From Kiloniella spongiae (lineage in GTDB: Bacteria > Pseudomonadota > Alphaproteobacteria > Kiloniellales > Kiloniellaceae): DNA of 64,000 nucleotides. The position numbers and the translations under genes were made by a program. Within the stretch, counting starts at the first letter, position 1; the number at the start of each line of letters is the position of its first letter. The notes beneath the pieces were generated by a model, which had not been told where the DNA came from, ran no database searches, and saw only the letters and a program-made list of their open reading frames with translations. The stretch spans positions 1 to 64,000 of the forward strand of contig NZ_LAQL01000004.1 in assembly GCF_001026905.1 (NCBI RefSeq), in the 5' to 3' direction. Positions 21,278 to 32,951 of this stretch are shown here, one piece after another.

Positions 21278-21682
21278 TCACTCGTCAGAGATATAATCAC
21301 CTTCAAACTTCTTAAGATTATCGTCAATCTGATACCAGTCAGGTTTAGATCCCGTATGAATGTGAACTGTTGGTCGTATTCCCGGATCATCATCGAGCGC
21401 AGAGGCAGCAACAACATATATGTCACCCGTGACCATATCGCCCAATGAAGTCCCGCAATCTTTGCAAAAACACCGTTCCAATTTCCATTTTGGCCCGGTA
21501 GGAACTTTTGCAATTTTTTCTTGTCCTTCAATTACTTTGAGATCATCAGCCTTACCAATCAATACAGCCGAAAAAACACCCGCAGCTTTACGACACCTTG
21601 AGCAATGACAATAACTCAAAGAAGAGGGTTCTCCTGAAATTTCAAACTTAACCGCGCCACATAGGCAACTTCCATTAATCAT
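21278..21682 (-). CDS. GFA family zinc protein (glutathione-dependent formaldehyde-activating enzyme-like)
   Basis: 134 residues from the ATG at 21682, preferred over 21739 because the domain starts there and GAAAGAG precedes it. Zinc cysteines: 'GSCLCGAVKFEISG', 'SYCHCSRCRKAAG', 'RCFCKDCGTSLG'. This is the CENP-V/GFA fold; most members have no proven enzyme activity, so formaldehyde detoxification is only the family label. It is the last host gene before the left dif/attL site. Confidence 0.88.
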   Translation of the reverse strand: MINGSCLCGAVKFEISGEPSSLSYCHCSRCRKAAGVFSAVLIGKADDLKVIEGQEKIAKVPTGPKWKLERCFCKDCGTSLGDMVTGDIYVVAASALDDDPGIRPTVHIHTGSKPDWYQIDDNLKKFEGDYISDE

Positions 21683-21824
21683 CTTATGCTCTTTCTTCAA
21701 AACACTCCACAAAAGGAACGTAGCATGAACACAATTCAATTGGGTAGTGATAATTTAAATTCGAAAGCAAGAAAACTACTCATAACTAAAGGACATAAAC
21801 AGAGTAACAGTTTTATAAATCACT

Positions 21825-21852
21825 AATTCGCATAATGTATATTATGGAAAAT
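21825..21852 (+). other. dif: dif-like Xer recombination site, left prophage boundary (attL)
   Basis: XerC arm AATTCGCATAA, core TGTATA, XerD arm TTATGGAAAAT. The CGCATAA, the TGTATA core and TTATG..AAAT match the classical E. coli dif as I remember it. The core plus whole XerD arm recur in direct orientation at 32930-32946, 11.1 kb away. The XerC arm here is the better match to consensus and is read as the chromosomal one. Confidence 0.85.
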
Positions 21853-21953
21853 TATTTAAGAAAGGTTTCCAGAAAGCTTGGAATATTATTTCTGATCGCT
21901 TTAACCGATTATTTCCACCTGTCATGGCAAAAGGATTCGCTCTCGCATCTTAA
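21852..21953 (+). other. detached 3' tail of the phage repressor gene (33 codons)
   Basis: Starting in the XerD arm, a frame of 33 codons (LFKKGFQKAWNIISDRF... to TAA at 21951-21953) has no start of its own. It is exactly in frame with the repressor at 32556 if the two dif-like sites are joined: ...NNVYYGK then LFKKGF... . The joined protein would be 163 residues instead of 131, and its stop would lie 20 nt before the HTH gene at 21974. Confidence 0.7.
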
Positions 21954-21973
21954 AGTTCAGGTAGAGCAACAAT

Positions 21974-22399
21974 ATGGATAACTATTTCAGACAGTCTTTC
22001 TTTTCTCTCGACCCGGTGTCATGCCTTTCACTTGCCGATCATATGGAAGCACACGCCAAGGTCTTGAGACGTCATGCAGAAACAATTGACGCAGATAGAA
22101 CGGCTGGACTTCGCAAACAAATGAGGATCAAACGAGCATCAAAACTTGCACATGCTCAATCAAAAACAGGCTCCACAGATCGTAGCTCTGTATTCAGTGC
22201 AGCAATGGCTTTCCGGCTTCCTATCGAAGTCGTGAAAGCCAATTTTGAGCGACTACAGAAGAAACAGGCCCAAAAAGACCTGATCGCCAGAAACAAGAAG
22301 ATTATCAGCCTTAGCAGACAAGGCCATTCTTCCAGAACCATCGGTCGTCATTTTGGGATTTCTCACACTACGGTATTAAAAATACTTAAAGGGGTTTAG
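21974..22399 (+). CDS. phage helix-turn-helix protein
   Basis: 141 residues. The C-terminal third is a clear resolvase/sigma-like HTH: 'RNKKIISLSRQGHSSRTIGRHFGISHTTVLKIL' (residues ~105-138). The middle is long, basic and probably helical ('LRKQMRIKRASKLAHAQSK'); the N-terminus 'SCLSLADHMEAHAKVLRRHAE' is also helical. Probably a DNA-binding regulator or nicking accessory of the prophage. Ribosome site AGGTAGAG upstream. It lies just inside the left boundary; in the circular phage it would follow the repressor gene directly, suggesting a joint regulatory operon. Its stop codon is inside a terminator shared with the converging gene. Confidence 0.65.
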   Translation: MDNYFRQSFFSLDPVSCLSLADHMEAHAKVLRRHAETIDADRTAGLRKQMRIKRASKLAHAQSKTGSTDRSSVFSAAMAFRLPIEVVKANFERLQKKQAQKDLIARNKKIISLSRQGHSSRTIGRHFGISHTTVLKILKGV

Positions 22400-22406
22400 C
22401 CCCTTT
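22388..22406. terminator. bidirectional terminator overlapping two stop codons
   Basis: AAAGGGG-TTTAG-CCCCTTT, a perfect 7-bp stem. The 5-base loop contains the TAG of the plus-strand HTH gene and the TAA of the minus-strand gene, so both convergent frames end inside the hairpin. Confidence 0.8.
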
Positions 22407-23202
22407 CCATTACAAACAAGAGCAAATCAATCCACTTTTGTCCTTCAATCACTTTCCATATCAAATCATAAGGTATTGATGTAATAGCTAATATAAATGT
22501 GAATATAACCATCATATTGTTCAAATTCATTGAATCATTATGCATTTTCTCTTTTTGTTTATCCTTATCAACAGTAGCAAGAGCTCTACCAGTTATCTTG
22601 TGTCTTATTGCGTCAACTCTTGCTAAATCTTCAGACTCACACAAAGATGAAATGTAGAGACTAAGTAGCTCTGATAATTTCCCATATTGGTTAGATCGAT
22701 AAATTTGCTCATTAAAGATGTAACATAATATTTCATTGTTGCTAAAAGGAGAATTATTTCCAGTTATAGCTCTTTCAACTAATATCTCTAGAATTTTTGA
22801 GCGTGTAGGAAGAATATATGTTCTTTTGTTAACAATGAAATTTAAAAGCTTATCTTTAAGAATATTCAACCTATAAATTTGTGATATTCCTGTTAGGACA
22901 TAATCTTGAAAATTTTCATATCTGGTTTGATAAACACCTTTGAAATGAAGAATTTGAAAGGTTAATAAATTAATAGCATTAAAAGGTATAGTTGCTTCAT
23001 ATTGAAATCTATCAACATTCCAATATTTTCCTTCTAGACCATATTCGGTAATCGTGTCTACGCACATTAAAGGAATATTGCCATCGTATAAATAAATAGC
23101 AAAACAGTTGATTGCTTTCGCACCGGGGCCTGATCTAGGAAAACTTACAGGACAATTTTCTTTAAGTAACCTTCTTAGTACCCATTTTTGAAATGAATTC
23201 AT
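22396..23202 (-). CDS. AT-rich phage-borne protein of unknown function with C-terminal membrane segment
   Basis: 268 residues, clearly more AT-rich than the virion genes beside it. N-terminal half 'NCFAIYLYDGNIPLMCVDTITEYGLEGKYWNVDRFQYEATIPFNAIN...' is globular; the middle is helical; the end has one or two hydrophobic stretches ('MMVIFTFILAITSIPYDLIWKVIEG', 'WIDLLLFVM'). It has its own intergenic region upstream and its own terminator, i.e. it is outside the virion operon. Position, composition and membrane anchor fit a cargo (lysogenic-conversion or superinfection-exclusion) gene. No family recognised. Confidence 0.6.
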   Translation of the reverse strand: MNSFQKWVLRRLLKENCPVSFPRSGPGAKAINCFAIYLYDGNIPLMCVDTITEYGLEGKYWNVDRFQYEATIPFNAINLLTFQILHFKGVYQTRYENFQDYVLTGISQIYRLNILKDKLLNFIVNKRTYILPTRSKILEILVERAITGNNSPFSNNEILCYIFNEQIYRSNQYGKLSELLSLYISSLCESEDLARVDAIRHKITGRALATVDKDKQKEKMHNDSMNLNNMMVIFTFILAITSIPYDLIWKVIEGQKWIDLLLFVMERG

Positions 23203-23286
23203 TAAATTAATCTCACAATGATAAACATCTAATATATGAGATATATACTACCTTTTTATTCGTAACTCTATTATGATTTCTTTAAT

Positions 23287-23571
23287 TTAACTAATCGCCA
23301 AAACAGCCATAGCACCCAAAATCCAAGGCAACCAATCCATAGGCTTTTCGACCAGATTACCCTCTGTAATATCGACCGTTAGAACGTCTTTAACTGTTCC
23401 ATCCAAATTAACAATACCGATACCCGGTACAGAGAAAACAGGCGGGTATTCGCTGTAAAAATCTGGATCATTTGGGAAGTTCACTCCGGGATAACGCGCA
23501 CGGAGAATGGCTATCTGTTCATCGTAATAGTTAGATCGCCCAAGCTCATCAAGATTACGCCACAAGCCCAT
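23287..23571 (-). CDS. phage protein with C-terminal membrane anchor, unknown
   Basis: 94 residues, last gene of the virion/lysis operon. Soluble N-terminal ~70 residues with many Asp/Pro/Tyr ('ARYPGVNFPNDPDFYSEYPPVF'), then 'WLPWILGAMAVLAIS' as a terminal membrane segment. It starts on the last base of the holin stop (TAATG), implying coupled translation. May be a lysis accessory or virion membrane protein; not resolvable. Confidence 0.6.
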   Translation of the reverse strand: MGLWRNLDELGRSNYYDEQIAILRARYPGVNFPNDPDFYSEYPPVFSVPGIGIVNLDGTVKDVLTVDITEGNLVEKPMDWLPWILGAMAVLAIS

Positions 23572-23978
23572 TATTTCGCCCTTCCCTTTAGCTTTTCAAC
23601 AGTCCGCAAGCCACCCAAACCAAGCAGCCCCATAAGAACGGCGCTCATTTGGTCCATATCAATACCCGGCGGGATAGAAACAGCTTCCCCGGTGTTCGTA
23701 ATCACCCAAGCCATGAGATCACGCAGGATATAGTTATAGGCCATTGCAGCGCCACAGACCCAGATAATAAAGGGCCGACCACCAGCCACAAAAATAGACC
23801 TGTGCGACGCCTCGACCTTGTTTATTTCAGCTTGTATCAAATCTGCTTTCTGGGCCAGCCGTTGCTTGGCAAGCTCTAATGTCATTGCTTCTTCTTCTGT
23901 GGTCCAGAGGTCATCGACAATATTGCCAACGGCCTTTACTGCACTGACGACCTCACCACCTAAGAGCTTATCAAGCAT
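23571..23978 (-). CDS. holin of the 3-TM (GTA-type) family
   Basis: 135 residues. 'LTLELAKQRLAQKADLIQAEINKVEASHRSIFVAGGRPFIIWVCGAAMAYNYIL' followed by 'MSAVLMGLLGLGGLRTVEKLKG' matches the pattern of the '3TM holin' family seen in gene transfer agents and alphaproteobacterial phages: amphipathic helix, then membrane spans, then RTVEK. It would open the inner membrane at lysis, together with the wall hydrolase encoded upstream. It overlaps the 40-residue gene upstream by 8 nt. Confidence 0.8.
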   Translation of the reverse strand: MLDKLLGGEVVSAVKAVGNIVDDLWTTEEEAMTLELAKQRLAQKADLIQAEINKVEASHRSIFVAGGRPFIIWVCGAAMAYNYILRDLMAWVITNTGEAVSIPPGIDMDQMSAVLMGLLGLGGLRTVEKLKGRAK

Positions 23979-24093
23979 TGATCAAATACTCTAAATGCGT
24001 GACCCGCTTGTCAAAGTTCCACGCAACAAAAAGCAGAACGTAGACACCGACATCACCACCAGCAGACAACAATTTTAACAGCCTGTCTTCCAT
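23971..24093 (-). CDS. 40-residue membrane peptide in lysis cassette
   Basis: MEDRLLKLLSAGGDVGVYVL then LFVAWNFDKRVTHLEYLINA: one hydrophobic stretch (residues ~15-26) with charged ends. It ends 8 nt inside the holin gene start and begins right after the preceding 53-residue gene stops. Similar short peptides flank holins in other phages; function not known. Supported by tight gene packing rather than homology. Confidence 0.55.
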   Translation of the reverse strand: MEDRLLKLLSAGGDVGVYVLLFVAWNFDKRVTHLEYLINA

Positions 24094-24094
24094 A

Positions 24095-24256
24095 TCAGCC
24101 CTTTTTCATTTGCTGATAGCCGAAGTATAAAGCGCCGGCACCGAGAGCGATTTTCAAGGCCCCGTTGCCAGCATTATTAACCCCGTCCCCGGCTTGCTTT
24201 ACCCCGATACCCCCAAGCAGGACACCGCCCCCAAGTGCCATAATTAGCCAATGCAT
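24095..24256 (-). CDS. 53-residue glycine-rich membrane peptide
   Basis: Begins MHWLIMALGGGVLLGGIGVK and ends LGAGALYFGYQQMKKG: two hydrophobic segments around a polar turn (QAGDGVNNAGN). It starts on the final base of the upstream gene's stop (TAATG). Tailless membrane phages such as PM2 carry several peptides of this type in the internal membrane; a virion membrane role is inferred. Confidence 0.6.
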   Translation of the reverse strand: MHWLIMALGGGVLLGGIGVKQAGDGVNNAGNGALKIALGAGALYFGYQQMKKG

Positions 24257-24360
24257 TATTTACGCTTTGCCTTTACGACACGACCACCCTTTGCATAGCG
24301 GTAGCCCTTTTTCAGACGCCCGTTTGACTTGGTTCCGGTCTTTGCTTTTTTACGTGCCAT
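24256..24360 (-). CDS. 34-residue highly basic peptide
   Basis: MARKKAKTGTKSNGRLKKGY followed by RYAKGGRVVKAKRK: about 40% Lys/Arg and no acidic residue. AGGAGGT stands 6 nt before the ATG, one of the best ribosome sites in the element. Likely a nucleic-acid-binding virion peptide that neutralises packaged DNA; inference from charge and location only. Confidence 0.65.
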   Translation of the reverse strand: MARKKAKTGTKSNGRLKKGYRYAKGGRVVKAKRK

Positions 24361-24369
24361 AGTTACCTC

Positions 24370-24822
24370 CTAAGCTACGTTGGTATAAAACAAATGCGAC
24401 CCAAGAGCCGCGCTTAATGTGGCGTTCTTGGTCCAATAGACCGAGATTGCCCGTGTATGGTAATGGGTTGCGCCGTTGGTGATATCTGCAAGAGATCCAG
24501 ACACGGCTTGATCAGCAATTCGTAGAGCCAGCGCAAAGGCTGGATCACTATCCGTTACTGCCAATAACTTGGCCCGGTTAGGATCGTTATGGTTCCACGC
24601 ACTGAATTGCCATTTCTGTGTTGCCACAGCCGCAGGAGTAGAAGGCCAACGACGGTCCCTCACCCGGTTCATAATGACATTTGCGACCGCTTGCATACCC
24701 TCTGCCCCCTCTGAACGGGCTTCGCCCCAGAGTGTCCGAGCAACCGTATCAACGTCAGAACTATTCATCTTTCTTCCCCAATAGATCAGGCCGATAGCAG
24801 CCAGTACGGCTAGCGTTTCCAT
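24370..24822 (-). CDS. phage cell wall hydrolase (SleB/Hydrolase_2 domain) with N-terminal anchor
   Basis: 150 residues. Residues ~3-16 are hydrophobic (LAVLAAIGLIYWG), a signal-anchor. The rest is the SleB-type domain: 'VARTLWGEARSEGAEGMQAVANVIMNRVRDRRWP' with the catalytic-region Glu, 'KWQFSAWNHNDPN', 'GATHYHT' and 'SHLFYTN'. Acts on peptidoglycan, either as a virion-borne entry enzyme or as the lysis enzyme with the holin three genes on. Begins in the stop of the preceding gene (TAATG). Confidence 0.85.
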   Translation of the reverse strand: METLAVLAAIGLIYWGRKMNSSDVDTVARTLWGEARSEGAEGMQAVANVIMNRVRDRRWPSTPAAVATQKWQFSAWNHNDPNRAKLLAVTDSDPAFALALRIADQAVSGSLADITNGATHYHTRAISVYWTKNATLSAALGSHLFYTNVA

Positions 24823-25487
24823 TACAAAATGTCGTAATTTATTGATGCATATAGTTGGTTAGTTAACTGTTTGGCCCATACACCTAACCCGGCTTCTAAA
24901 TACATATTATGATATTCAGCACTGTCACCAATAGCGACGACCCTACGAAACTTTGATGCATTTGCGTAAGCCGTTGCAGGCGACACAGTATCGAAAGCAA
25001 GCACCGACCAGTTCCCATAGGCAATCATGCTTAATTGCCGAATGATAATTCCGTTCACATTGACAGACGGATTTATGAGATTGTGAAAGAAGTTTCCACC
25101 AGCCGCCGTAAAACTCGCGGAATGCTCACCCAATGGCACAATACCCGGCTTATCCTTTTCAGCTACAACCGGAAAATTTATGACATTCGCCTGTAAAACC
25201 CCTGTAAGACTTAACCTGCTATCGCGGATATCACCGAAGCCTACAGCCAGAGTGATTTCAATTGGCGCGTTTGCCTCATTCTCTACCCGGATATAATCAA
25301 AGGTTTCGCCCTCATCAGCTTTGACCGAAAAGCCCTGATAGAACAGGCTTGGCGTATCATCTTCAAAGCCAAGCAAAAAGGCCGTAGGTGCCTCAATACA
25401 AGCAACCACATTGCCCCGGATTGTGACCTTTTCGGACTGGTTCGCACCAATCGTAACCTTATGGACTGCATACCGTCTTTTACTCAT
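24822..25487 (-). CDS. putative minor capsid (spike/penton-like) protein
   Basis: 221 residues, no membrane segment, dominated by beta-type sequence ('VTIGANQSEKVTIRGNVVACIEAPTAFLLGFED', 'NAPIEITLAVGFGDI', 'VNVNGIIIRQLSMIAYGNWSVLAFD'). It is the largest soluble protein of the virion operon after the coat protein, placed between the membrane peptides and the hydrolase. A vertex or spike role is the simplest guess; there is no motif that proves it. Confidence 0.6.
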   Translation of the reverse strand: MSKRRYAVHKVTIGANQSEKVTIRGNVVACIEAPTAFLLGFEDDTPSLFYQGFSVKADEGETFDYIRVENEANAPIEITLAVGFGDIRDSRLSLTGVLQANVINFPVVAEKDKPGIVPLGEHSASFTAAGGNFFHNLINPSVNVNGIIIRQLSMIAYGNWSVLAFDTVSPATAYANASKFRRVVAIGDSAEYHNMYLEAGLGVWAKQLTNQLYASINYDIL

Positions 25488-25855
25488 TATGACCTCTTAA
25501 AAATCAGCCATGCCACACCCAAAGGCAGCACATATTTAACAACCTTGTCAGCCAATGACGCTTCAGCATTGAATGACCGCTCTACAGCCCCCAGAGCCTT
25601 ATCAAATACCGCCTCCGTTCTGGCTGCTTCTTTGCCAAATGCATCTAATGAAGCTTCATAAGCCTTGTCGATAAGCTCAAAAGCCCCGCCATCAGTGATA
25701 TTCACATTGTGACCAGAGCCAGAGACAGCCAAGCCTCCAAAGGCATTGGTTGAATTGGCACCGTTTGCAATGGCTTCATCTGTGGCAGCAACCCGGCTAT
25801 CAGTGGTATTGATAACCGTCGATGATTTACTTTTTGAACTGGAAAACAGACCCAT
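25487..25855 (-). CDS. virion-type protein with C-terminal membrane segment
   Basis: 122 residues. Low-complexity Ser/Thr/Asn start (SSSKSKSSTVINTTDSRVAATDEAIANG), 'AVSGSGHNVNITDGGAFELIDKAYEASLDAFG', a helical middle and a terminal span 'VVKYVLPLGVAWLIFKRS'. The layout of a long soluble part and a short C-terminal anchor suits a membrane protein under the capsid. Coupled to the next gene by TAATG. Confidence 0.6.
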   Translation of the reverse strand: MGLFSSSKSKSSTVINTTDSRVAATDEAIANGANSTNAFGGLAVSGSGHNVNITDGGAFELIDKAYEASLDAFGKEAARTEAVFDKALGAVERSFNAEASLADKVVKYVLPLGVAWLIFKRS

Positions 25856-25858
25856 ATT

Positions 25859-26080
25859 CTAAGCCTTTCTCACCAGCATCAGAGCCAGACCACCAACGAT
25901 AACAAGCGGCAACGCCTTTTCGATTGTTCCGGCAATGCCCTTATCCTGCCCACCGACGATAAAGGGCGCAGAAATTGCGCTGTAACCGTCCGATGCAGCA
26001 GAAGACACAGCCGGAGCGGACCCGGTTAAAGACCCGCCGAACAGCGTAGAAAACAAACCGCCTACAGGTGCCGCACTCAT
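25859..26080 (-). CDS. 73-residue virion-type membrane protein
   Basis: Small Ala/Gly/Ser-rich protein with a C-terminal hydrophobic helix 'ALPLVIVGGLALMLVRKA'. It overlaps the upstream gene by ATGA and is followed 3 nt later by the next one. Same architecture as its neighbours (soluble N-terminus, one C-terminal span, basic tip). Confidence 0.6.
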   Translation of the reverse strand: MSAAPVGGLFSTLFGGSLTGSAPAVSSAASDGYSAISAPFIVGGQDKGIAGTIEKALPLVIVGGLALMLVRKA

Positions 26081-26382
26081 TTAGCATTACCCTTACTCAA
26101 AATCACAAAGCCAAGCAGACCGATACCGCCCATCATTGCCAGTGTTTTGGCGTCTATAGGTTTTGCGGTTGGAAGGTTGGTATTTGTGACTGGTGTAAAA
26201 TCAGGTGTCGGTGTTGATACCGTTCTGGGGTTCAATCGTTCACGTAAACGGCTTTGACGTTCTTTGGCATCAAGATAACGGTCAAAGACTGATCCCGCCG
26301 TATTTGCAGCTTGATCAAAAACACCGCCGACAGTTTCAACGCCCTTATTCAACAACCCAAAGAAATCATCAAAAATTGTCAT
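26077..26382 (-). CDS. 101-residue virion-type membrane protein
   Basis: Start set at the ATG at 26382 (AGGGGGAATA directly upstream) rather than 26424. 'MTIFDDFFGLLNKGVETVGGVFDQAANTAGSVFDRYLDAKERQSRLRERL' is an amphipathic helix, then a Pro/Thr-rich linker and a terminal span 'TLAMMGGIGLLGFVILSKGNAK'. It follows the coat-protein gene after 58 nt. Confidence 0.62.
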   Translation of the reverse strand: MTIFDDFFGLLNKGVETVGGVFDQAANTAGSVFDRYLDAKERQSRLRERLNPRTVSTPTPDFTPVTNTNLPTAKPIDAKTLAMMGGIGLLGFVILSKGNAK

Positions 26383-26440
26383 TATTCCCCCTTGTGCAGC
26401 AAGGCGCGAACGCCCTGCCCTCACAATTCAGATTGTTGGA

Positions 26441-27250
26441 TTATTGCCCCGGAACGTGGCCCTCTAGGCGTTCAGCAATAATGCGGAAATTTGCTGGTGC
26501 TGACATATCCAAACGCAACCGAAAGTCTTGAGCTTTCAGGCTCATTCGGTCACTTAGACGGTTCGTCGGTGAAAAATCTACGTGTGTCATACCAGCCTGA
26601 ATAGTACGCCCAGTGTGACCGTAGTGAGCCTTAATAACTTGTTGATCGACCTGAGAAATGATCTTTCCATCACGCTCAATTTCAACGGTTTTTGTGTTTG
26701 CTGTGGTCATATGCAGACCGAGCAAAGCATAGTCACCACGAGGAATATTAGAAATCTCGTAAGGTCCAGCAGATTGCGCGTCATATCCGTCAAAACGACG
26801 AATAGTACAATGCACACCCATCTTTTGCGCAGGACCCTGTAAAGCATGAATTTGCAGACTTGGATTTGTTACACCCGCCGCAATATCAATTTCTACATTA
26901 AAGACCTGAACATCAGCCGTACCCCATGCCAGAGCGTCCTCGCCTTCTTGCTGCCGCATGTTCGGACGTGAGAAGACAATTTGAATTACCCCGTCTTCAA
27001 ATCCATAACCGTAATAGTCGTTTACGACATGAAGTTCTGCACCGGACAATTTTACCTTTTCATCGGCGTCAATTACCAAGCGAATTTCTTCAATTTCAGC
27101 CGCAATTTGTGCCTTTGTCGCATCCGCACCATTCCGTTTGTATCGGATGAATAAGGAATGATACGTCAGGCCGACAGGCAGTTCCGCAATAGCCGTTGCA
27201 CCCGCTGCAACTTGACCAAAGGAGCCTACTTTTTTCATCATTCTTGCCAT
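26441..27250 (-). CDS. major capsid protein, double jelly-roll, PM2 P2-like
   Basis: 269 residues, the same length I recall for PM2 P2. The start 'VGSFGQVAAGATAIAELPVGLTYHSLFIRY' parallels PM2's 'NVAAG....LPIGQTYEVIDLRY', 'ISNIPRGDYALLGLHMTTANTKTVEIERDGKII' parallels its second-barrel '..LPR..GYRIAAIHI...AVEFQIDG', and the end 'SLKAQDFRLRLDMSAPANFRIIAERLEG' parallels '...IQDLRLKID....AEIIVEY'. It is all-beta, with no signal or membrane segment. Expected to form pseudo-hexameric trimers on a T-lattice over an internal membrane. The comparison is from memory; no alignment was run. Confidence 0.82.
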   Translation of the reverse strand: MARMMKKVGSFGQVAAGATAIAELPVGLTYHSLFIRYKRNGADATKAQIAAEIEEIRLVIDADEKVKLSGAELHVVNDYYGYGFEDGVIQIVFSRPNMRQQEGEDALAWGTADVQVFNVEIDIAAGVTNPSLQIHALQGPAQKMGVHCTIRRFDGYDAQSAGPYEISNIPRGDYALLGLHMTTANTKTVEIERDGKIISQVDQQVIKAHYGHTGRTIQAGMTHVDFSPTNRLSDRMSLKAQDFRLRLDMSAPANFRIIAERLEGHVPGQ

Positions 27251-27264
27251 GATAGCTGGTTCCC

Positions 27265-27393
27265 TTATGCGTCAAAGCCGTTGATAGCTTTATTGACCTG
27301 ATCGTTATCACGCATGGAATTCATCAGCCACCCGGCTGCGAAGACACCAGCAACGACGATTGCCAACATTTTAATGTCACCCTTACTAGGCAT
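27265..27393 (-). CDS. 42-residue single-span membrane peptide
   Basis: MPSKGDIKMLAIVVAGVFAA then GWLMNSMRDNDQVNKAINGF plus DA: a hydrophobic segment at ~9-23 flanked by Lys and by an acidic/amide tail. It begins on the last base of the preceding gene's stop (TAATG) and lies 14 nt before the coat gene. Probable virion membrane peptide. Confidence 0.6.
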   Translation of the reverse strand: MPSKGDIKMLAIVVAGVFAAGWLMNSMRDNDQVNKAINGFDA

Positions 27394-27503
27394 TAAATGT
27401 ACTCCGATGTTGCGGAGTTTTTCTGTAGCGCTTTAATCGCCACAGCAGCAAACACAGCACCTAATGCATATGTTACGGCTGTACCCCAGTTGATTTTTGG
27501 CAT
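27393..27503 (-). CDS. 36-residue single-span membrane peptide, first gene of virion operon
   Basis: MPKINWGTAVTYALGAVFAA followed by VAIKALQKNSATSEYI. One hydrophobic helix (residues ~7-22). Preceded by GGGGGCAGG as ribosome site. It is the first gene after the 108-nt gap that follows the ATPase gene, so it opens the virion transcription unit if a promoter lies there. Confidence 0.6.
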   Translation of the reverse strand: MPKINWGTAVTYALGAVFAAVAIKALQKNSATSEYI

Positions 27504-27594
27504 AACCTGCCCCCGTTTAAAAATTGAGTTAACTTACTCTCGTACCCTATTCAAAATTCAGGATTTATTGAGAAAATCAACGCTTAATTTCACC

Positions 27595-27604
27595 CGTATA
27601 TACG
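27595..27604. promoter_or_regulatory. palindrome in the gap before the virion operon
   Basis: Perfect 10-bp palindrome CGTATATACG, immediately followed by the 6-bp palindrome TACGTA, and enclosed by CCGTA/TACGG. It sits upstream of the coat/membrane gene block in one of the few non-coding gaps of the element; a late-gene activator or repressor site is plausible but unproven. Confidence 0.35.
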
Positions 27605-27611
27605 TACGGAA

Positions 27612-28274
27612 TTACCCGAATTTGTCCTTTCCTCGGGTAACGACGCCGTTCTTTTTGTGGAAGTATTCCAGCGGTTGAAGCTCATCAATCTTATCTTTGT
27701 ATTGAGTACCCAATAGCCCCACAGTCTTAGCCCGGTCATTCACGTCATCACCCGGCCTTAGTATGTAGACTTCTGTTGTATTGCCTCGGAAATCAGCATG
27801 AATACCCGCCAATCTTTGGGCCACGCCAATGACCTCAATGCCGTAGTGGCGACCACGCGCACAAACCTCAAACATACCGTAAATTTCAGACGGGAGATTA
27901 TGATTAGGAAGCCCGGCGTTCATTTCCTCTACAACCAGCGTGACCATATCAGCAGCCGTATAACTAACCTTTTCAAATACCTTTTTCTGAATGTCCATTA
28001 AGATCAGGCATAACCTATGAAGCTGCATAGGGCGATTTTGCGCACTACACTGATACGCTATACGAAACCCTCTACGATTAGCGGCAATGGCCCTTTGTAG
28101 GTCTACTTCATTTGGAGAACGCCCGACCTGAATAAACCCCGGTTCGTGTTGGTATTCCCCTGTAGGGTCAAAAATCAACACCCGCTTGCGGTCCTTGATA
28201 AGTTTTTTCGTACGGGTAGATTTACCCGAACCGGAACCACCATAAACCCCAATACGTTCAGCACCCTTACCCAT
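27612..28274 (-). CDS. DNA packaging ATPase, FtsK/HerA (A32-like) type, PM2 P9-like
   Basis: 220 residues from the ATG at 28274, chosen because GGGAG precedes it and it overlaps the upstream stop by 8 nt; the frame is open to 28319. Walker A 'VYGGSGSGKSTRTKK' at residues ~9-23, Walker B 'DMVTLVVEEMNAG' near ~107-119, and a following 'VCARGRHYGIEVIGVAQRLAGIHADFRGNTTEVYILR' sensor-like segment with the Q/N and arginine pattern of this group. Length and motif spacing match genome-packaging ATPases of tailless membrane phages. It would pump DNA into the procapsid, and its place next to the coat gene supports that. Confidence 0.88.
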   Translation of the reverse strand: MGKGAERIGVYGGSGSGKSTRTKKLIKDRKRVLIFDPTGEYQHEPGFIQVGRSPNEVDLQRAIAANRRGFRIAYQCSAQNRPMQLHRLCLILMDIQKKVFEKVSYTAADMVTLVVEEMNAGLPNHNLPSEIYGMFEVCARGRHYGIEVIGVAQRLAGIHADFRGNTTEVYILRPGDDVNDRAKTVGLLGTQYKDKIDELQPLEYFHKKNGVVTRGKDKFG

Positions 28275-28809
28275 TGGCAGCACTCCCGTCATTCGGGCCA
28301 AAGTCATATGGATCATCACCGCCAGACTGTGCCGATTGTTGCACTGGCTGTTCCGTTTTCTGGCTTGATTGTTTTACAGGCTTGGCATTTTTTGCCTTGA
28401 TTTCAGCTATGACCATCATTGCCTTAGGAATGGTAAAACTGCCAATAGCAATTGCAGCCTGTGCATACTCATTTCCCGGATGAATAAGAAACTGTAACCA
28501 CTTGACTTTTAAACAGAGTTTATAAAGCGCATCAGTGGCTTTTCGGGCCTTTTCTGCTTCAAAATCCTGAATAGGCAAAGTTTCAAGTTTCGTGTACCAC
28601 CCGGCAAATTCCAGACCACCATGCAAAGCGTCATAAAATTCATCTTCTGTAAGAAAGCCAGCATCCGGGTTGCTTTCTTTAGCTTCTACAACTTCATTTT
28701 CAGTTTCGACAGTATCGCCGAAAGTCATGAAATCAGCTTCCGAGATAGTCTCGGTAGTCTCCGTATTCTGGTCGCTCTGCATCCCCAGAGGCTGGAACTG
28801 GTTGCTCAT
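28267..28809 (-). CDS. phage protein upstream of the packaging ATPase, unknown
   Basis: 180 residues. Acidic N-terminal half (ETTETISEADFMTFGDTVETENEVVEAKE), a middle 'WLQFLIHPGNEYAQAAIAIGSFTIPKAMMVIAEI' that could contact membrane, and a Gln/Ser-rich tail ending in SAANG. It overlaps the preceding gene by 77 nt and the ATPase by 8 nt. Perhaps a packaging or assembly partner; no family recognised. Confidence 0.6.
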   Translation of the reverse strand: MSNQFQPLGMQSDQNTETTETISEADFMTFGDTVETENEVVEAKESNPDAGFLTEDEFYDALHGGLEFAGWYTKLETLPIQDFEAEKARKATDALYKLCLKVKWLQFLIHPGNEYAQAAIAIGSFTIPKAMMVIAEIKAKNAKPVKQSSQKTEQPVQQSAQSGGDDPYDFGPNDGSAANG

Positions 28810-29062
28810 TATCTTCTACCTTGTCACATGATTGTTCTGGCTTCTGGGCATCCAAATACGCCTGTATAAATTTACGAGACGTTGGCTTGCTCATATTTTG
28901 ACTTGCGGTACAGCTTCCGCCATCAGCAGAACCGTCACAGCGCGTATAACAAACGCCACCCGCATTCACCCTTACTTGAACTTTGTAAGTGCAAAAGTCG
29001 TCATTGCATTCCTTATGCCCGACAACTGTCCCAGCTAGTTCGTGAGGTGTCTTTTTACCCAT
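28733..29062 (-). CDS. cysteine-rich phage protein, unknown
   Basis: 109 residues from the ATG at 29062, selected because AGGGGG lies 5 nt before it (a GTG two codons earlier is possible). Six cysteines in 'ECNDDFCTYKVQVRVNAGGVCYTRCDGSADGGSC' suggest a zinc-binding or disulfide-bonded module; the C-terminal part is polar and acidic. It overlaps both neighbours, consistent with a compact phage operon. Confidence 0.6.
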   Translation of the reverse strand: MGKKTPHELAGTVVGHKECNDDFCTYKVQVRVNAGGVCYTRCDGSADGGSCTASQNMSKPTSRKFIQAYLDAQKPEQSCDKVEDNEQPVPASGDAERPEYGDYRDYLGS

Positions 29063-29231
29063 TGGCACCCCCTATTTGTGACTTGAGACTAGAGACCTCG
29101 TTAATAAGCCCCCGTATGATTGAGTTCTGGCACTTGACCAGTTGCATAGCCACATCTGCTTTCTGCATCAGTGGCGCTTTCTCTAAACGCGCTTCCCACA
29201 CGTCCAGAGCTTCTATTAGACCGTTCATCAT
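29055..29231 (-). CDS. 58-residue helical phage protein overlapping the rep 3' end
   Basis: The likely start is the ATG at 29231 (TTAGGGGTA just upstream). MMNGLIEALDVWEARLEKAP continues as an amphipathic, coiled-coil-like helix ending in SSLKSQIGGANG. It shares 131 nt in another frame with the C-terminus of rep. Its well-formed ribosome site and protein-like composition suggest it is real. Confidence 0.55.
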   Translation of the reverse strand: MMNGLIEALDVWEARLEKAPLMQKADVAMQLVKCQNSIIRGLINEVSSLKSQIGGANG

Positions 29232-30348
29232 TACCCCTAATGAATATGAAACGATCCCTCGCCTTGGATACCTTCTTTTCAAACCCCTCTCTATTTTCCC
29301 GAATATCAGACCGTAGAACACGCTCAAGACGCGGCACGATCATAGAGAGATTTGACCCGTCATAATCCAGCACAGCAGCCAGACCAGCCGCACAGCCTTT
29401 TATGAGGGTTTCATATGTATGTACGGCTTTGTTTAATTCGACCTCTCTAATATCAGAGGGTTCAACACCGCTTTCATACATACGTAAACAGTTTGCTATT
29501 TCTTCTGTTGTCATTTCCCATATGGGGTCTACGTCCATACGGGTTGCGTTTGTATCGGTCTGGTCAGGATTGAGATAACGAATATCGCTCATAGCCTTTT
29601 TGAACAGGTCACATATGGACGCTTCCAAATCCTGCCAACTCGTAATGTTCCACTTTTCTTTTAAGTGCCGCTTTCCAGCCCGAACCTCTACCCGCCAGAC
29701 CTTGTTATTCGGATTGTCCTTTTCTAAATCCCAAATCTTCCACCAGTGTTCTTTACGCTTTGAAATAACCTCAGCCCGTTTATCGTAAATGATGATTTGG
29801 CGGTTCGGCATTTTACCCACAGTGACAGAGGTTGTCCGCCTTCCCTTATGGCTCGTAGACACGTCATTTTCCTCATAAGAACCGCGCACAGTGGAGCTAT
29901 GACAAACAAAATCATTGGACCTTAAAGCAAAGTCAGGCGCGAAAAAATCAACGCAGAAATCCACACGCCCAATACTCTCAGAGAGAACCGTTGCGCCCAA
30001 GCCTTCAAGAATATCATACAGTCGCTGCTTGGTGCCTTCATAACCGCGACAGGCAAGACCAGCAGAGCCACACGACACGCGAATGTTGTATTCCGTTGGA
30101 TTGTTCGACTTCTTGAAAAACCATGTCTCACCATCTGGCCCGGTAGAACAGCGATAAGCATAGCCGTTGCGATTGCCTGTTATATCAATAAGTAGCTCTA
30201 TGCCGCCGGGACCGACGCGAACGGGCTGTGGGGCCTCTACCTCTTTGGCGAGTTCTTTAGCTGCTTCAAGAGCATCTACGACACGCCCCGGTAAAGCACC
30301 CTGAAAGGAAACATCCAGCCCGTCAAATCCTCTGTATATCACTTCCAT
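29101..30348 (-). CDS. rolling-circle replication initiator, Rep_trans family
   Basis: 415 residues from the ATG at 30348 (a GTG at 30354 adds two). Core motifs of the phage/plasmid Rep_trans family: 'ESIGRVDFCVDFFAPDF' (RxDxxxD), 'SVTVGKMPNRQIIIYDKRAEVISK' (IYDK..E) and 'KVWRVEVRAGKRHLKEKW' (RxE). These proteins nick one strand at the double-strand origin through a tyrosine and restart replication; in filamentous phages the RstA-type protein does this. PM2 itself uses a different rolling-circle family, so this pairing with a PM2-like capsid is notable. The last ~40 residues are Ser/Arg-rich, overlap another gene and may be poorly conserved. Confidence 0.85.
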   Translation of the reverse strand: MEVIYRGFDGLDVSFQGALPGRVVDALEAAKELAKEVEAPQPVRVGPGGIELLIDITGNRNGYAYRCSTGPDGETWFFKKSNNPTEYNIRVSCGSAGLACRGYEGTKQRLYDILEGLGATVLSESIGRVDFCVDFFAPDFALRSNDFVCHSSTVRGSYEENDVSTSHKGRRTTSVTVGKMPNRQIIIYDKRAEVISKRKEHWWKIWDLEKDNPNNKVWRVEVRAGKRHLKEKWNITSWQDLEASICDLFKKAMSDIRYLNPDQTDTNATRMDVDPIWEMTTEEIANCLRMYESGVEPSDIREVELNKAVHTYETLIKGCAAGLAAVLDYDGSNLSMIVPRLERVLRSDIRENREGFEKKVSKARDRFIFIRGNDERSNRSSGRVGSAFRESATDAESRCGYATGQVPELNHTGAY

Positions 30349-30383
30349 AATCACACCGTTTTCTGTTTTATGTAATTCTGTGG

Positions 30384-30405
30384 GGGGGTGCTACAAGCGA
30401 CCCCC
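30384..30405. promoter_or_regulatory. hairpin between rep and HNH, candidate replication origin or regulator
   Basis: GGGGGT-GCT-ACA-AGC-g-ACCCCC folds into a 9-bp stem with a 3-base loop and one bulge. It lies 36 bases upstream of rep in the divergent gap with the HNH gene. Rolling-circle origins often present the nick site in such a hairpin near rep; a terminator is less likely because no T-run follows on either side. Confidence 0.4.
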
Positions 30406-30529
30406 AAGGAGCCAATTTGAAAGAAAAAGTATCGTTTTGAAATAATGACTCCCTGTTCTTACTTTGTTCATGTACAATACTACATACAAAGCACCACATG
30501 TTGTATTTTAGATTCTATAGGAGCACTAA

Positions 30530-30820
30530 ATGTCGCACTCTATGTTAACAATCCAATTGGTTTGGCAAAAGGCCACTCCAATACTTGGACGCGATCAAGA
30601 TATCTGGCGAAAAGATAAGTTCGGAAGCCTAATTCACAGACACTCATATGGTATGCAATCTGATTATGGTTGGCATATTGATCACATATATCCGGATAGC
30701 AAAGGTGGCCCTGATGTCGTAGCAAATTACCAACCCTTGCAATGGAAAAATAATATTGCAAAGAGTGATAAAGTTGGATTACGAGGCCTTTCTTTATTCG
30801 GCTCTTTTCCCCGCTCATAG
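30530..30820 (+). CDS. HNH endonuclease-type protein
   Basis: 96 residues. 'GWHIDHIYPDSKGGPDVVANYQPLQWKNNIAKSDK' carries the HNH pattern (His-Ile-Asp-His, central Asn, final Asn-Asn), residues ~47-81. GGAG stands 8 nt before the ATG. It is one of only three plus-strand genes of the element and faces away from rep. HNH proteins of this size nick or cut DNA; here it could act in replication, packaging, homing or against competitors. Confidence 0.75.
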   Translation: MSHSMLTIQLVWQKATPILGRDQDIWRKDKFGSLIHRHSYGMQSDYGWHIDHIYPDSKGGPDVVANYQPLQWKNNIAKSDKVGLRGLSLFGSFPRS

Positions 30821-30824
30821 ATAC

Positions 30825-30855
30825 ATAAATAAGCCTCTAAATGAGGCTTATTTAT
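30825..30855. terminator. bidirectional terminator between HNH gene and early operon
   Basis: Perfect 13-bp stem ATAAATAAGCCTC/GAGGCTTATTTAT with a 5-base loop. It follows the HNH stop by 5 bases and overlaps the stop codon of the minus-strand 40-residue gene (30852-30974). Confidence 0.85.
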
Positions 30856-30974
30856 CCCCATATTCCCCAACCAGTGCCAACACCAACAACGAAGCCAATG
30901 CCAGTAGGAATACTTCCGACCAGAACAAAGAACTTGATCCATTCCCAAGTCTCACCATCAAACCAATCACGCAT
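30852..30974 (-). CDS. 40-residue membrane peptide, last gene of early operon
   Basis: MRDWFDGETWEWIKFFVLVG followed by SIPTGIGFVVGVGTGWGIWG: Trp-rich amphipathic head then a Gly-rich hydrophobic segment. It overlaps the stop of the XRE-RMF gene by 8 nt and has AGGA upstream. Its stop lies in the terminator hairpin. Confidence 0.6.
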   Translation of the reverse strand: MRDWFDGETWEWIKFFVLVGSIPTGIGFVVGVGTGWGIWG

Positions 30975-31287
30975 GATATTTTTCCTGTGCTGCATAATAA
31001 CCTTTGAACCACTCGCCACGATCTTCTCCGGGGCGATACGGACAACGCGAAGAGTTCACGCTTTCCTGCCAAGCTTTAAAGCCCTCTTGGTAGGGTTCGG
31101 CTTCTTCCGGCAATTCATCAGGAAAAGGTTCGTTCGTGGCCCATGCTTCCACTTCATCCGATGGATCACGCTTCCCGGCTTCCATCTTGGATATGTAGGA
31201 TCGTGAAACACCAAACTTTTCACCGAGTTCAGCTTGTGAGAGCTTTTGCTCTAATCGCTTGGCCCGGATTTTCTCACCAATATTCAT
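30967..31287 (-). CDS. XRE helix-turn-helix protein fused to an RMF-like domain
   Basis: 106 residues from the ATG at 31287, preferred over 31344 as the domain starts there and AAAGG precedes it. Residues 1-42 are a Cro/C1 HTH ('IRAKRLEQKLSQAELGEKFGVSRSYISKMEAGKRDPS'). After an acidic linker (EPFPDELPEEAE), residues ~65-104 read 'YQEGFKAWQESVNSSRCPYRPGEDRGEWFKGYYAA', which aligns without gaps to ribosome modulation factor (Q..GY.A...S...CPY.....R..W..GW..A). RMF causes ribosome hibernation in enterics; in phages the domain is unexplained. Might couple transcriptional control to host ribosome state. Confidence 0.75.
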   Translation of the reverse strand: MNIGEKIRAKRLEQKLSQAELGEKFGVSRSYISKMEAGKRDPSDEVEAWATNEPFPDELPEEAEPYQEGFKAWQESVNSSRCPYRPGEDRGEWFKGYYAAQEKYHA

Positions 31288-31301
31288 TTTCAAACCTTTC
31301 A

Positions 31302-31643
31302 TTAGAGAACTTTTTTCATTCCGAGAGAAACAGGCACACCGCACGACCTAAAAAGCATTTCCCAATCCGTTGCATTGGTTTTGTCAGGGAATACCTTGTG
31401 CCTCTTTTTAAAGTGTTCAGTCGTGGATTTTAGCTGATTACAGACAGCCTTGAATTTGTCATCACCTTTGGGCCAAGGATAAATGCTAGACCGGGTTATT
31501 TCTTCATCCTGCATTGATTGCAGGGCGTTACCCATATCAGCGGCGGTATCAAAGTCAGTCTTAACGAGATATTCCCGCAGACCGTCAGACCAGCTTACAA
31601 GCCATGTCTTTGCATTGATATTATTCCGCCACTGAACAGCCAT
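31302..31643 (-). CDS. early phage protein, unknown
   Basis: 113 residues, soluble and Trp-containing: 'MAVQWRNNINAKTWLVSWSDGLREYLV', 'SSIYPWPKGDDKFKAVCNQL', 'TDWEMLFRSCGVP'. AGGA lies upstream and the gap to the DUF736 gene is only 9 nt, so it belongs to the early operon. No motif recognised; a small regulator or host-takeover factor would fit its position. Confidence 0.55.
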   Translation of the reverse strand: MAVQWRNNINAKTWLVSWSDGLREYLVKTDFDTAADMGNALQSMQDEEITRSSIYPWPKGDDKFKAVCNQLKSTTEHFKKRHKVFPDKTNATDWEMLFRSCGVPVSLGMKKVL

Positions 31644-31652
31644 AACAAAGTC

Positions 31653-32078
31653 CTATCGTGGGTAAGCAAAACCGCCTGAGCTATCAGCAGCAGACGGGGC
31701 GCGACGACGCTTGTTAGGGTTGTAGCGTTCCCAGACGATACGCATATGGTCCGGGTTCTTTGGGTCTGGTTGATCTTCCATATCAACGAAGAAAGCCGCC
31801 ACGTTGACGCTGCCATTCATATCAGGGTGGTCAACTGCCAGAGACAGGAACTTTCCCCCGCCTTGATCTTCTTTCCACCATGCAGCCCCGAAATCTTCCC
31901 ACTCGCCACGGTAATGAATATTGATGCGGTAATCAGGGGAACGATCAGAGCGCTTGATTGCTGGATCAAGAAACAATGGCCCAGAGGCAACAGCGTTTAA
32001 ATCAATATCGCCCCTAAAGCATTCTTTGTCTTTTGTTGTGGCTGGTATATGTACGAGAGTTCCAATTTTGCGAGACAT
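31653..32078 (-). CDS. DUF736-like protein
   Basis: 141 residues. 'IGTLVHIPATTKDKECFRGDIDLNAVASGPLFLDPAIKRSDRSPDYRIN....EDFGAAWWKEDQGGGKFLSLAVDHPDMNGSVNVAAFF' follows the DUF736 layout (GTF...F.G.I.TL....V...P.......PDFR....E.GAAW.K....G..YLSV.LDDP.....I.A.L). DUF736 is frequent on alphaproteobacterial plasmids; an OB-like single-strand DNA-binding role is sometimes suspected but not established. The basic tail KRRRAPS supports nucleic-acid contact. Ribosome site GGAAAGA. Confidence 0.72.
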   Translation of the reverse strand: MSRKIGTLVHIPATTKDKECFRGDIDLNAVASGPLFLDPAIKRSDRSPDYRINIHYRGEWEDFGAAWWKEDQGGGKFLSLAVDHPDMNGSVNVAAFFVDMEDQPDPKNPDHMRIVWERYNPNKRRRAPSAADSSGGFAYPR

Positions 32079-32115
32079 ATTCTTTCCTTCGCCGTTCGTT
32101 AAACCTATCTCCCCA

Positions 32116-32201
32116 CCCCTCCGGGGCGGGTATTAATGGGTTTTTAATTTTAGAGGGGTTTCACCCCTTAAAGAGAGTTGGGAGAGGGCAGATTAATGCC
32201 C
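32116..32201. promoter_or_regulatory. cluster of three GC-rich hairpins before the DUF736 gene
   Basis: Within the ~175-nt non-coding gap 32079-32253: CCCC-tcc-GGGG (32116-32126), AGGGGT-ttc-ACCCCT (32154-32168) and GGGCA-gattaa-TGCCC (32186-32201). None has a proper T-run. A structured leader or a single-strand (lagging) origin for rolling-circle replication would fit. Confidence 0.4.
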
Positions 32202-32253
32202 CCTTCCCCTCTAAAGGCTTCCGGTTGCTCCCCAGCAGAGCCAGAGCCAAAAT

Positions 32254-32358
32254 TCATAAAAGTGAGGGAATAAGAGTTAGAAAGCCGTAGGTCGCACCCA
32301 TGCCGATAACGGTGCCGATGCCCAGACCAAAACCAAAAATGATACCCTGCGAAAACAT
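32254..32358 (-). CDS. 34-residue glycine-rich membrane peptide
   Basis: MFSQGIIFGFGLGIGTVIGM followed by GATYGFLTLIPSLL: a single membrane helix with repeated G-x(3)-G spacing. GGGGGAATAG immediately precedes the ATG. It is the first minus-strand gene after the operator region, so it should be made early after induction. Confidence 0.6.
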   Translation of the reverse strand: MFSQGIIFGFGLGIGTVIGMGATYGFLTLIPSLL

Positions 32359-32434
32359 CTATTCCCCCGTGTGACTGCCTCGCCTTGGGGTGACATTCGG
32401 TTGCCACCCCGTCCCCGGCGAGGGATCAAGAAAT

Positions 32435-32449
32435 GGTCACATTGTGACC
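32435..32449. promoter_or_regulatory. palindromic operator GGTCACA-t-TGTGACC
   Basis: Perfect 7-bp inverted repeat with one central base, in the divergent gap between the early operon and the repressor. Different in sequence from the TTATAG array beside it, so a second regulator (perhaps the XRE-RMF protein) may bind here. Confidence 0.55.
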
Positions 32450-32462
32450 TCATATAAGCCTC

Positions 32463-32537
32463 TTATAGCTTATAGTGAAGCTATAAGGTCATAACTAGAC
32501 TCATCTTGTCAACATGTAATTTATAGATAAACTATAA
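32463..32537. promoter_or_regulatory. operator array of TTATAG/CTATAA half-sites
   Basis: Half-sites at 32463-32468 and 32470-32475 (TTATAG), 32481-32486 (CTATAA), 32521-32526 (TTATAG) and 32532-32537 (CTATAA). They form the inverted repeats TTATAGCTT-n6-AAGCTATAA and TTATAG-n5-CTATAA. The second sits 18 nt before the repressor ATG, over a TATAAG-like element. Minus-strand TTGACA (32512-32507) can serve as a -35 for the early operon. Typical repressor control of divergent promoters. Confidence 0.7.
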
Positions 32538-32555
32538 GAAAGAGGAGAACCCGCC

Positions 32556-32951
32556 ATGAAAACAGTAGATTTCTACATTGACGAAGCCAAAAAAAATAGA
32601 GGAATTAAGTCAGATGCAGGATTATCTAGAGAGCTAGGATTTAAAGGCAATCCCACTGGGCATTGGCGGACAAAACGAGCATGGCCTGCTGATGAGACAA
32701 TTGTAGAACTCGCAGAAATGGCGAATGAAGACCCAACAGAAGCATTAATGAACCTCAATATATGGAGAGCCTCGGGCAAAGCACGGGTTCTCTATGAACG
32801 TATTGCCAAAAGCACAGTTCAGAGTGTGGCAATCCTTGGGGTTTCCAGCCTTGCCACTTTTGGTTTCCAACCAAAAACCGCAGAAGCCAGCCAAATTTTG
32901 GAAAAAGTGGAAACCCAAGTCGCGAACAATGTATATTATGGAAAATATTAG
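32556..32951 (+). CDS. phage repressor-like HTH protein (DUF3693-type), 3' end altered by integration
   Basis: 131 residues as integrated. Residues ~4-62 'DFYIDEAKKNRGIKSDAGLSRELGFKGNPTGHWRTKRAWPADETIVELAEMANEDPTEALMNL' match the HTH proteins (DUF3693) that act as regulators in filamentous phages. A hydrophobic stretch follows ('TVQSVAILGVSSLATFGF'). AGAGGAG precedes the ATG. The last codons lie within the right dif-like site and the stop TAG comes from host DNA; in the circular phage the frame continues 33 codons (see 21852-21953). Faces the operator array, so it probably represses itself and the early operon. Confidence 0.75.
   Translation: MKTVDFYIDEAKKNRGIKSDAGLSRELGFKGNPTGHWRTKRAWPADETIVELAEMANEDPTEALMNLNIWRASGKARVLYERIAKSTVQSVAILGVSSLATFGFQPKTAEASQILEKVETQVANNVYYGKY
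32919..32946 (+). other. dif-like Xer recombination site, right prophage boundary (attR)
   Basis: XerC-side arm GTCGCGAACAA (diverged), core TGTATA, XerD arm TTATGGAAAAT. The core and XerD arm are identical, base for base, to the left site and in the same direction. The diverged XerC arm is interpreted as the phage's own, coding the repressor residues QVANN. Confidence 0.85.

Follow-up and report, generated by a model that had tools for sequence, protein, structure and literature searches.

In phiRSS0, a filamentous phage of Ralstonia, the viral attachment (att) site attP lies in open reading frame (ORF) 13, and integration shortens the product from 156 to 130 residues, for which a functional difference has been hypothesised (Yamada 2013, PMC3816273). 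The location of attP within ORF13 is also given in PMC4471427, and attP of XacF1 lies within its ORF12 (PMC4076744). In mycobacteriophage BPs immunity depends on integration, the long form of the repressor being degraded by way of an ssrA-like tag while the short form holds immunity (PMC4557955). The phage phiRs551 has a resolvase of its own and an att site outside the repressor. Here we describe a related arrangement in the first 64,000 nucleotides of contig NZ_LAQL01000004.1 of the alphaproteobacterium Kiloniella spongiae (the window). This contains a PM2-like, that is corticovirus-like, prophage of 11,094 bp in the chromosomal dif site, and the att site falls within the gene for its helix-turn-helix (HTH) repressor. 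The features concerned are as follows.

21829..21852, plus strand: attL, a full dif site, CGCATAATGTATATTATGGAAAAT; the dif between both flanks is empty in genomes G010 and G012
21837..32930, unstranded: corticovirus-like prophage, from the att-to-att period of 11,094 bp
21852..21953, plus strand: tail of the viral-form repressor, 33 codons LFKKGFQKAWNIISDRFNRLFPPVMAKGFALAS and a stop, stranded at attL and read in the same phase; stop TAA at 21951-21953
21974..22399, plus strand: regulator gene for 141 residues, with an HTH at the C-terminus that stays below Pfam cut-offs; in the circular form it would directly follow the repressor in its operon; from the ORF and sub-threshold matches
32463..32537, unstranded: candidate operator ahead of the repressor gene, with five TTATAG/CTATAA sites in 75 bp, from a motif count
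32556..32951, plus strand: repressor gene, prophage form, 131 residues, XRE-type HTH (phrog_638, 1.2e-16)
32817..32867, plus strand: hydrophobic segment VQSVAILGVSSLATFGF, residues 88-104, followed by TAEAS (Kyte-Doolittle 17-residue mean 1.56)
32923..32946, plus strand: attR, dif-like site CGAACAATGTATATTATGGAAAAT within the repressor gene, encoding NNVYYGK; from the dif pattern

The initial annotation had the repressor running through the right dif-like site to a host stop after 131 residues, and its coordinates and length are right. The prophage form ends in NNVYYGKY, and its TAG stop, one codon past GGAAAA, comes from host DNA. Read in the repressor frame, attL gives VYYGKLFKKGFQKAWNIISDRFNRLFPPVMAKGFALAS followed by a stop, and the frame stays in phase past attL for 33 codons, as had been proposed. 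When attR and attL are read together, the viral form across attP of the presumed circle has 130 + 33 = 163 residues, the junction expected there for the long ORF being GCGAACAATGTATATTATGGAAAATTATTT. Its stop lies 20 nucleotides before the HTH gene at 21974, again in agreement with the earlier coordinates, and AGGTAGAG is found upstream of that gene. Judged from these readings of the DNA, a dif site used by host Xer lies inside the repressor gene; in the predicted lysogen form the viral coding sequence breaks off at att and host DNA supplies the end, and the last 33 viral codons are stranded at attL together with the regulator gene, 11 kb from the repressor promoter. Through attP there would be a single 163-residue ORF in operon spacing with the regulator. 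As the best reading of this arrangement we infer that integration switches repressor activity.

The dif pattern, with at most two mismatches, is present in all eight genomes of the genus that are at least 90% complete, once in each of seven relatives and twice in the window genome (attL and attR); the ninth genome, 77% complete, has no match to it. In G010 and G012 (genomes are denoted by G numbers and loci by L numbers) both prophage flanks sit either side of a single dif, so that the site is empty there. Because of this, and of the single dif in the relatives, integration is assigned to the host chromosomal dif. With its position in the host dif and a dif at both ends, the element has the form of an Xer-using integrative element, and no recombinase exceeded the Pfam cut-offs among the 20 prophage proteins scanned. 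Its P2-type major capsid protein and HerA-type ATPase (DUF87) class it as corticovirus-like (Vinavirales), and its 11,094-bp att-to-att period fits the circular type of about 10 kb, the circle being presumed.

Comparison with the described systems shows what is shared and what is not. As in phiRSS0, dif/attP lies in an HTH regulator gene and Xer integration cuts the C-terminus (156 to 130 residues there, 163 to 131 here), although phiRSS0 is a filamentous phage of a betaproteobacterium. The Xanthomonas phages XacF1, Cf1c, phiXv2 and phiLf and the Stenotrophomonas phages PSH1, SMA9 and phiSHP2 likewise have an HTH repressor with a hydrophobic segment, dif inside the gene, a basic or hydrophobic tail and an adjoining next gene, but they are filamentous and that next gene is of another family (the PSH1/Cf1c/phiLf ORF112 type). 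With the filamentous dif-in-repressor cassette of the phiRSS0/Cf1c type the window shares a phrog_638 repressor (membership of the free-phage repressors was checked for PSH1, phiSHP2 and Cf1c), dif inside it and a next gene coupled to the stop; its carrier, however, has a P2 coat and a HerA-type ATPase and is not filamentous. BPs also has attP in its repressor ORF and a viral form longer at the C-terminus (by 33 residues there, 32 here), but it has its own integrase and an experimentally tested ssrA-like tag, whereas in the window host Xer would act, no integrase was found and the action of the tail is presumed. A P2-type capsid is shared with PM2, NO16 and PG21, a dif-like site beside an HTH gene with PM2 and NO16, and a dif-like attP with Jorvik (PMC10589892); the HTH gene of PM2 and NO16, on the other hand, stops before att, as does that of the PG21-like prophage in G617.

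Free-phage relatives, to which the initial annotation looked for a longer repressor, do carry a continuous long gene where circular filamentous genomes are available. In the records deposited as circular for PSH1 (ORF5), phiSHP2, SMA9, Cf1c, XacF1, phiXv2 and phiLf, the repressor gene is uninterrupted and contains dif. Within the HTH gene, an attP is annotated in the phiXv2 record and a Xer recombination feature in the phiLf UK record. The dif sequence is read in differing frames (VYYGK, YIMR, YTLC, IHYAK, IYYH, YILSH) and still the ORF continues. Repressors of relatives thus do not always end at the att site, and the two repressor forms, together with the separation of repressor and regulator, find support in the window, in its relatives and in the circular filamentous genomes alike. 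SMA7 was excluded, as a proviral record with a gene spanning the record start, and Inoviridae WC36-1 was not counted as a free phage, its record being linear and unverified and its post-dif sequence possibly chromosomal. The WC36-1 records (unverified; 7020, 8068 and 16080 bp) carry a repressor (L256/L257) 61% identical to that of the proteobacterial genome G711 over 116 residues, and one of them names a Lentisphaerae host.

Two pairs of these genomes are informative as to the history of the tails. The repressors of PSH1 and SMA9 have 39.5% overall alignment identity and diverged N-terminal parts, but their last 26 residues are identical, and the DNA of this shared end has two third-position differences. 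The Taiwan and UK records of phiLf show the reverse pattern: of the 145 aligned codons of the N-part, 144 agree, and none does in the tails after dif. Both patterns would be expected if tails were exchanged by Xer recombination at dif; they may also have arisen through other recombination.

How often att falls inside the repressor was assessed with 30 repressor ORFs from 29 loci, 18 of which were counted as two-ended (G080 failed the repressor hidden Markov model, HMM). The att site lies inside the repressor in ten: the window, G127, G123, G020, G904, G892, G813, G671, the plus-strand repressor of G561, and G259. For G123 attL was located separately as a weak pair, and for G259 it lies on another contig. 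In the other eight, att follows the stop (G031, G117, G700, G713, G486, the minus-strand repressor of G561, Thalassospira pCSC3H3 and G617, the last counted as two-ended on a weak att pair; the sites there are spaced 10,018 apart, the size of the PG21 genome, and the G617 repressor contains that of PG21). Twelve ORFs for which the second att was not found were excluded (G091, G393, G024, G425, G511, G902, G850, G849, G711, G634, G138 and G709), several of which also run into dif-like sequence at the 3' end, G850 ending in TVYYGKYLL and G849 in ILYIMETSAYYF. By virus type, six of the ten crossing prophages have a P2-type capsid (window, G127, G123, G020, G259, G813) and two the filamentous-phage Zot (G671, G561); with the searches made, neither was found in G904 and G892. 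At attL the continuing frame is open for 23-66 codons, with a median of 39.5 against 21.5 in the other two frames (n = 10, one-sided p = 0.009). This p value is modest, and the uninterrupted gene in circular phage records is the stronger evidence.

Two of these loci have further peculiarities. G561 contains two different dif-adjacent repressors, at 1997 (minus strand) and 15997 (plus strand), about 14 kb apart, of which one crosses att (L244). In G671 (L246) another tail related to the first, TVRRTWRYYW, is encoded immediately downstream of attR, which looks like what is left of another dif phage in tandem.

The eight repressors that stop before dif, like those of PM2 and NO16 with their putative dif sites, imply that dif phages as a whole can do without such a switch. 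They also lend themselves to a simpler explanation, in which dif stands at the end of a regulatory gene since interruption is tolerated there, and truncation has no regulatory consequence. The tails supplied by the host to the prophage forms fit this too: they range from 0 to 32 residues, so that the prophage end seems unconstrained. We nevertheless regard mere convenience as unlikely, since many phages preserve an open frame for the viral tail, its basic charge and its coupling to the operon, across differing dif frames and apparent natural swaps, and since the hydrophobic segment and att crossing co-occur, as described below.

The viral tails are net positive in all ten crossing prophages (+4 to +9), although mostly unrelated in sequence, and in seven of seven free phages (+1 to +5: PSH1, SMA9, phiSHP2, Cf1c, phiXv2, phiLf Taiwan and phiLf UK), compared with four of the ten tails that host DNA supplies to the prophage forms. 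In the prophages the tails are more positive than the average of the other two frames (paired one-sided Wilcoxon p = 0.001), and their amphipathic moment is above the average of five alternative readings (one-sided p = 0.002). A hydrophobic segment between HTH and att is seen in 14 of 14 crossing repressors, from the ten prophages and four free phages, against 5 of 12 non-crossing ones (Fisher p = 0.0012), at a cut-off of 1.5 that was chosen once the crossing values were known; without any cut-off the two sets still differ in hydrophobicity (Mann-Whitney p = 0.0011). In three of the five non-crossing repressors reaching 1.5 the 17-residue window lies in or near the HTH domain; PG21 and G617 share their repressor. 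AxA-like motifs follow the hydrophobic segment, as judged by eye and with a simple pattern.

How the tail might act is suggested first by its end. In the window it terminates in KGFALAS, which may be compared with RGVALAA at the end of the host transfer-messenger RNA (tmRNA) tag; the host tmRNA is of alpha-type, and the host belongs to the same family as G020. A tail of this kind could be a degron as in BPs, recognised in the manner of an ssrA tag by ClpXP or some other protease acting on C-termini, and only the truncated form would then accumulate; the BPs long form is indeed removed through such a tag (PMC4557955), PSH1 and SMA9 tails end in EIAA, and three of six other phages have Ala-ending tails like the host tags. 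The last residue in the window is Ser, however, not Ala, and phiLf UK ends in ADAK and Cf1c in TGQ. Tags of seven other alphaproteobacterial hosts were read (G020 stood outside this comparison), six of them with a viral tail, and the ends differ in all six: HSPA/VAVAA, CQYA/VRLAA, SRAG/TALAA, NYV/AQAA, SPC/AIAA and KCA/RLVA (tail/tag). None matches as the window does, and the degron was rejected as a general mechanism. Because these six tails do not match their host tags we place it among the rival explanations, as an improbable one, and for the same reason consider membrane action of a basic tail beside the hydrophobic segment to be at least as likely. In G031 (L028) the repressor stops 108 nucleotides short of att, and its end, KKKLAA, resembles that of the host tag, ARLAA.

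Membrane action could also take another form, with the tail itself a membrane-active peptide, serving superinfection exclusion or affecting the envelope, made only by the extrachromosomal phage and disarmed by integration; signal peptidase may free it at AxA. The basic amphipathic tails and the AxA-like motifs of the hydrophobic segment are in keeping with this, and a preliminary plasmid expression of ORF15 of phiRSM3 (ORF13 of phiRSS0) gave no correct clones, for which its author considered toxicity possible (PMC3816273). That ORF belongs to another integration system, though, and the putative signal-peptidase sites come from inspection and a simple pattern; we think this quite unlikely, slightly more so than the degron. 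Under the preferred reading, in which integration switches the repressor, the tail, with the hydrophobic segment that precedes it, may hold the repressor at the membrane, or it may act through proteolysis.

The second consequence of integration concerns the regulator gene. Its product (21974-22399) has a sub-threshold Pfam match to a resolvase HTH and weak PHROG matches to transposase and endonuclease. It is related to the next genes of G127 (E 4e-6), G892 (1.7e-4) and G813 (0.002), and the next genes of G813, G892 and G259 group together as a single family, with E below 1e-19. By an automatic rule the next gene starts between -8 and +29 nucleotides from the tail stop in eight of ten prophages (in G123 and G813 a start slightly further downstream looks likelier than that of the rule), and it overlaps the tail stop or lies 2 nucleotides from it in all seven annotated free phages (PSH1, phiSHP2, SMA9, Cf1c, XacF1, phiXv2 and phiLf UK). 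A consensus scan of 21600-22450 gave one promoter-like site, not above shuffled sequences. Conservation of a regulator beside the tail in several prophages, and the dif-like site that likewise follows the HTH gene of PM2 and NO16, could mean that only the operon split matters: a downstream antirepressor, lytic or excision factor would be silenced, and the tail would be a by-product of translational coupling. This would leave the basic, amphipathic tails unexplained and we doubt it, giving it about the same small weight as convenience.

In our preferred account, which combines these elements, integration would have two simultaneous effects on regulation. The tail, basic and probably membrane-active, would make the viral form weak, membrane-retained or unstable; integration would remove it, and the compact prophage form could then hold the lytic promoter. 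The partner regulator would at the same time lose its link to the promoter of the repressor. As in BPs, immunity would have to await integration, here by Xer. An integration-dependent regulatory change of this composition (att-cut repressor, tail loss and regulator uncoupling) is, in our judgement, probable by a small measure.

A number of observations count against it. The window phage is known from prophage sequence alone, its attP junction being reconstructed from attL and attR, and its hydrophobic segment is unsupported by a structure model, in which the predicted local distance difference test score (pLDDT) is below 50 at residues 84-104. The lysogen form moreover retains that segment, so that 'release from the membrane' is not straightforward. 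Of the relatives, the eight that stop before dif and the tags of the six other hosts have been mentioned; in addition, G904 has a tail without a basic amphipathic look, the automatic rule found no next gene for G904 and G561, the att pair of G123 is weak (6 mismatches of 20) and the phiLf Taiwan record is marked unverified. Besides the late choice of the 1.5 cut-off, the non-crossing set includes two weak relatives, PM2 c at an HMM E of 0.003 and NO16 at 0.02, and the comparisons are partly non-independent (PSH1/SMA9, Cf1c/phiXv2, G617/PG21).

The DNA-binding part of the repressor is better defined. In the structure model, made from a two-row alignment, the first 70 residues have pLDDT of about 87-96, and only the HTH part is supported. 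Foldseek with this model gave no match better than E 0.37; ImmR ranked first, and DdrO and P22 C2 were also high in the list. A profile search of PDB sequences with the repressor found 3bs3, a putative DNA-binding protein, at 2e-5. The TTATAG/CTATAA motif occurs 33 times in the 64 kb, against a mean of 27.6 in shuffles, so that about 0.03 are expected per 75 bp; the array of five is a candidate operator of the repressor.

The remaining genes assigned in the prophage are listed here.

23571-23978, minus strand: holin-like protein with three transmembrane segments, gene transfer agent holin family (PF11351 8e-14), near the cell wall hydrolase gene
24370..24822, minus strand: cell wall hydrolase (endolysin), PF07486 3e-23
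26441..27250, minus strand: major capsid protein, P2 family, PF18628 2e-23 and PF25513 5e-19
27612..28319, minus strand: packaging ATPase (HerA/DUF87), Pfam and PHROG profile matches
29101..30354, minus strand: replication-initiator (Rep) candidate, conserved in related prophages
30967-31344, minus strand: second XRE-type HTH gene, possible Cro-like counterpart of the repressor (HTH_3 2.5e-13)

The Rep candidate (29101-30354) has no Pfam or PHROG match; it is related to the Rep proteins of other prophages, and P12, the replication protein of PM2, was not matched. A scan of genome contigs with the Rep alignment gave 78 loci, four with a P2-type capsid in the stretch covered (by HMM) and two with a repressor of the window type. 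An integrase-like gene stands beside Rep, as judged by eye, in L142, L168 and L174; the loci of this Rep family may include satellites, or integrative replicons that rely on a Rep of the corticovirus type. Searches of viral contigs with the repressor, the major capsid protein, Rep and alignments of the last two found no relative. The dif pattern occurred there in 66 stretches, none with a phrog_638-like repressor by HMM, and these were judged chance matches in AT-rich phages. Among the open-access papers listed as matches, none concerned such a switch in corticovirus-like phages, or the tail features, in its title or the opening of its abstract; the excerpts of papers on NO16, Jorvik (PMC10589892) and marine Vibrio phages make no mention of such a switch.

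The observation made at this locus is correct and general, and its kind is already known in filamentous phages. What is new are the corticovirus-like examples, the common plan of HTH, hydrophobic segment, dif and basic tail, the stranded conserved regulator and the tail swapping. More tentatively, and with confidence falling somewhat short of even, we suggest that small viruses which use dif but are unrelated in their capsids, namely filamentous ones of the Monodnaviria and corticovirus-like ones of the Varidnaviria, may share one lysogeny switch actuated by Xer. A membrane-linked HTH repressor would bear a basic, membrane-active tail only while extrachromosomal; integration would strip the tail and strand the regulator in a single step, so that host dimer recombination would decide lysogeny, and the same site would allow tail exchange.

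If this is true, integrase-less phages use host chromosome-dimer resolution as a lysogeny switch, in two unrelated virus lineages. The 131- and 163-residue proteins, together with the stranded partner gene, offer a concrete pair for testing it. A possible route is also suggested for the natural swapping of repressor tails among dif phages.
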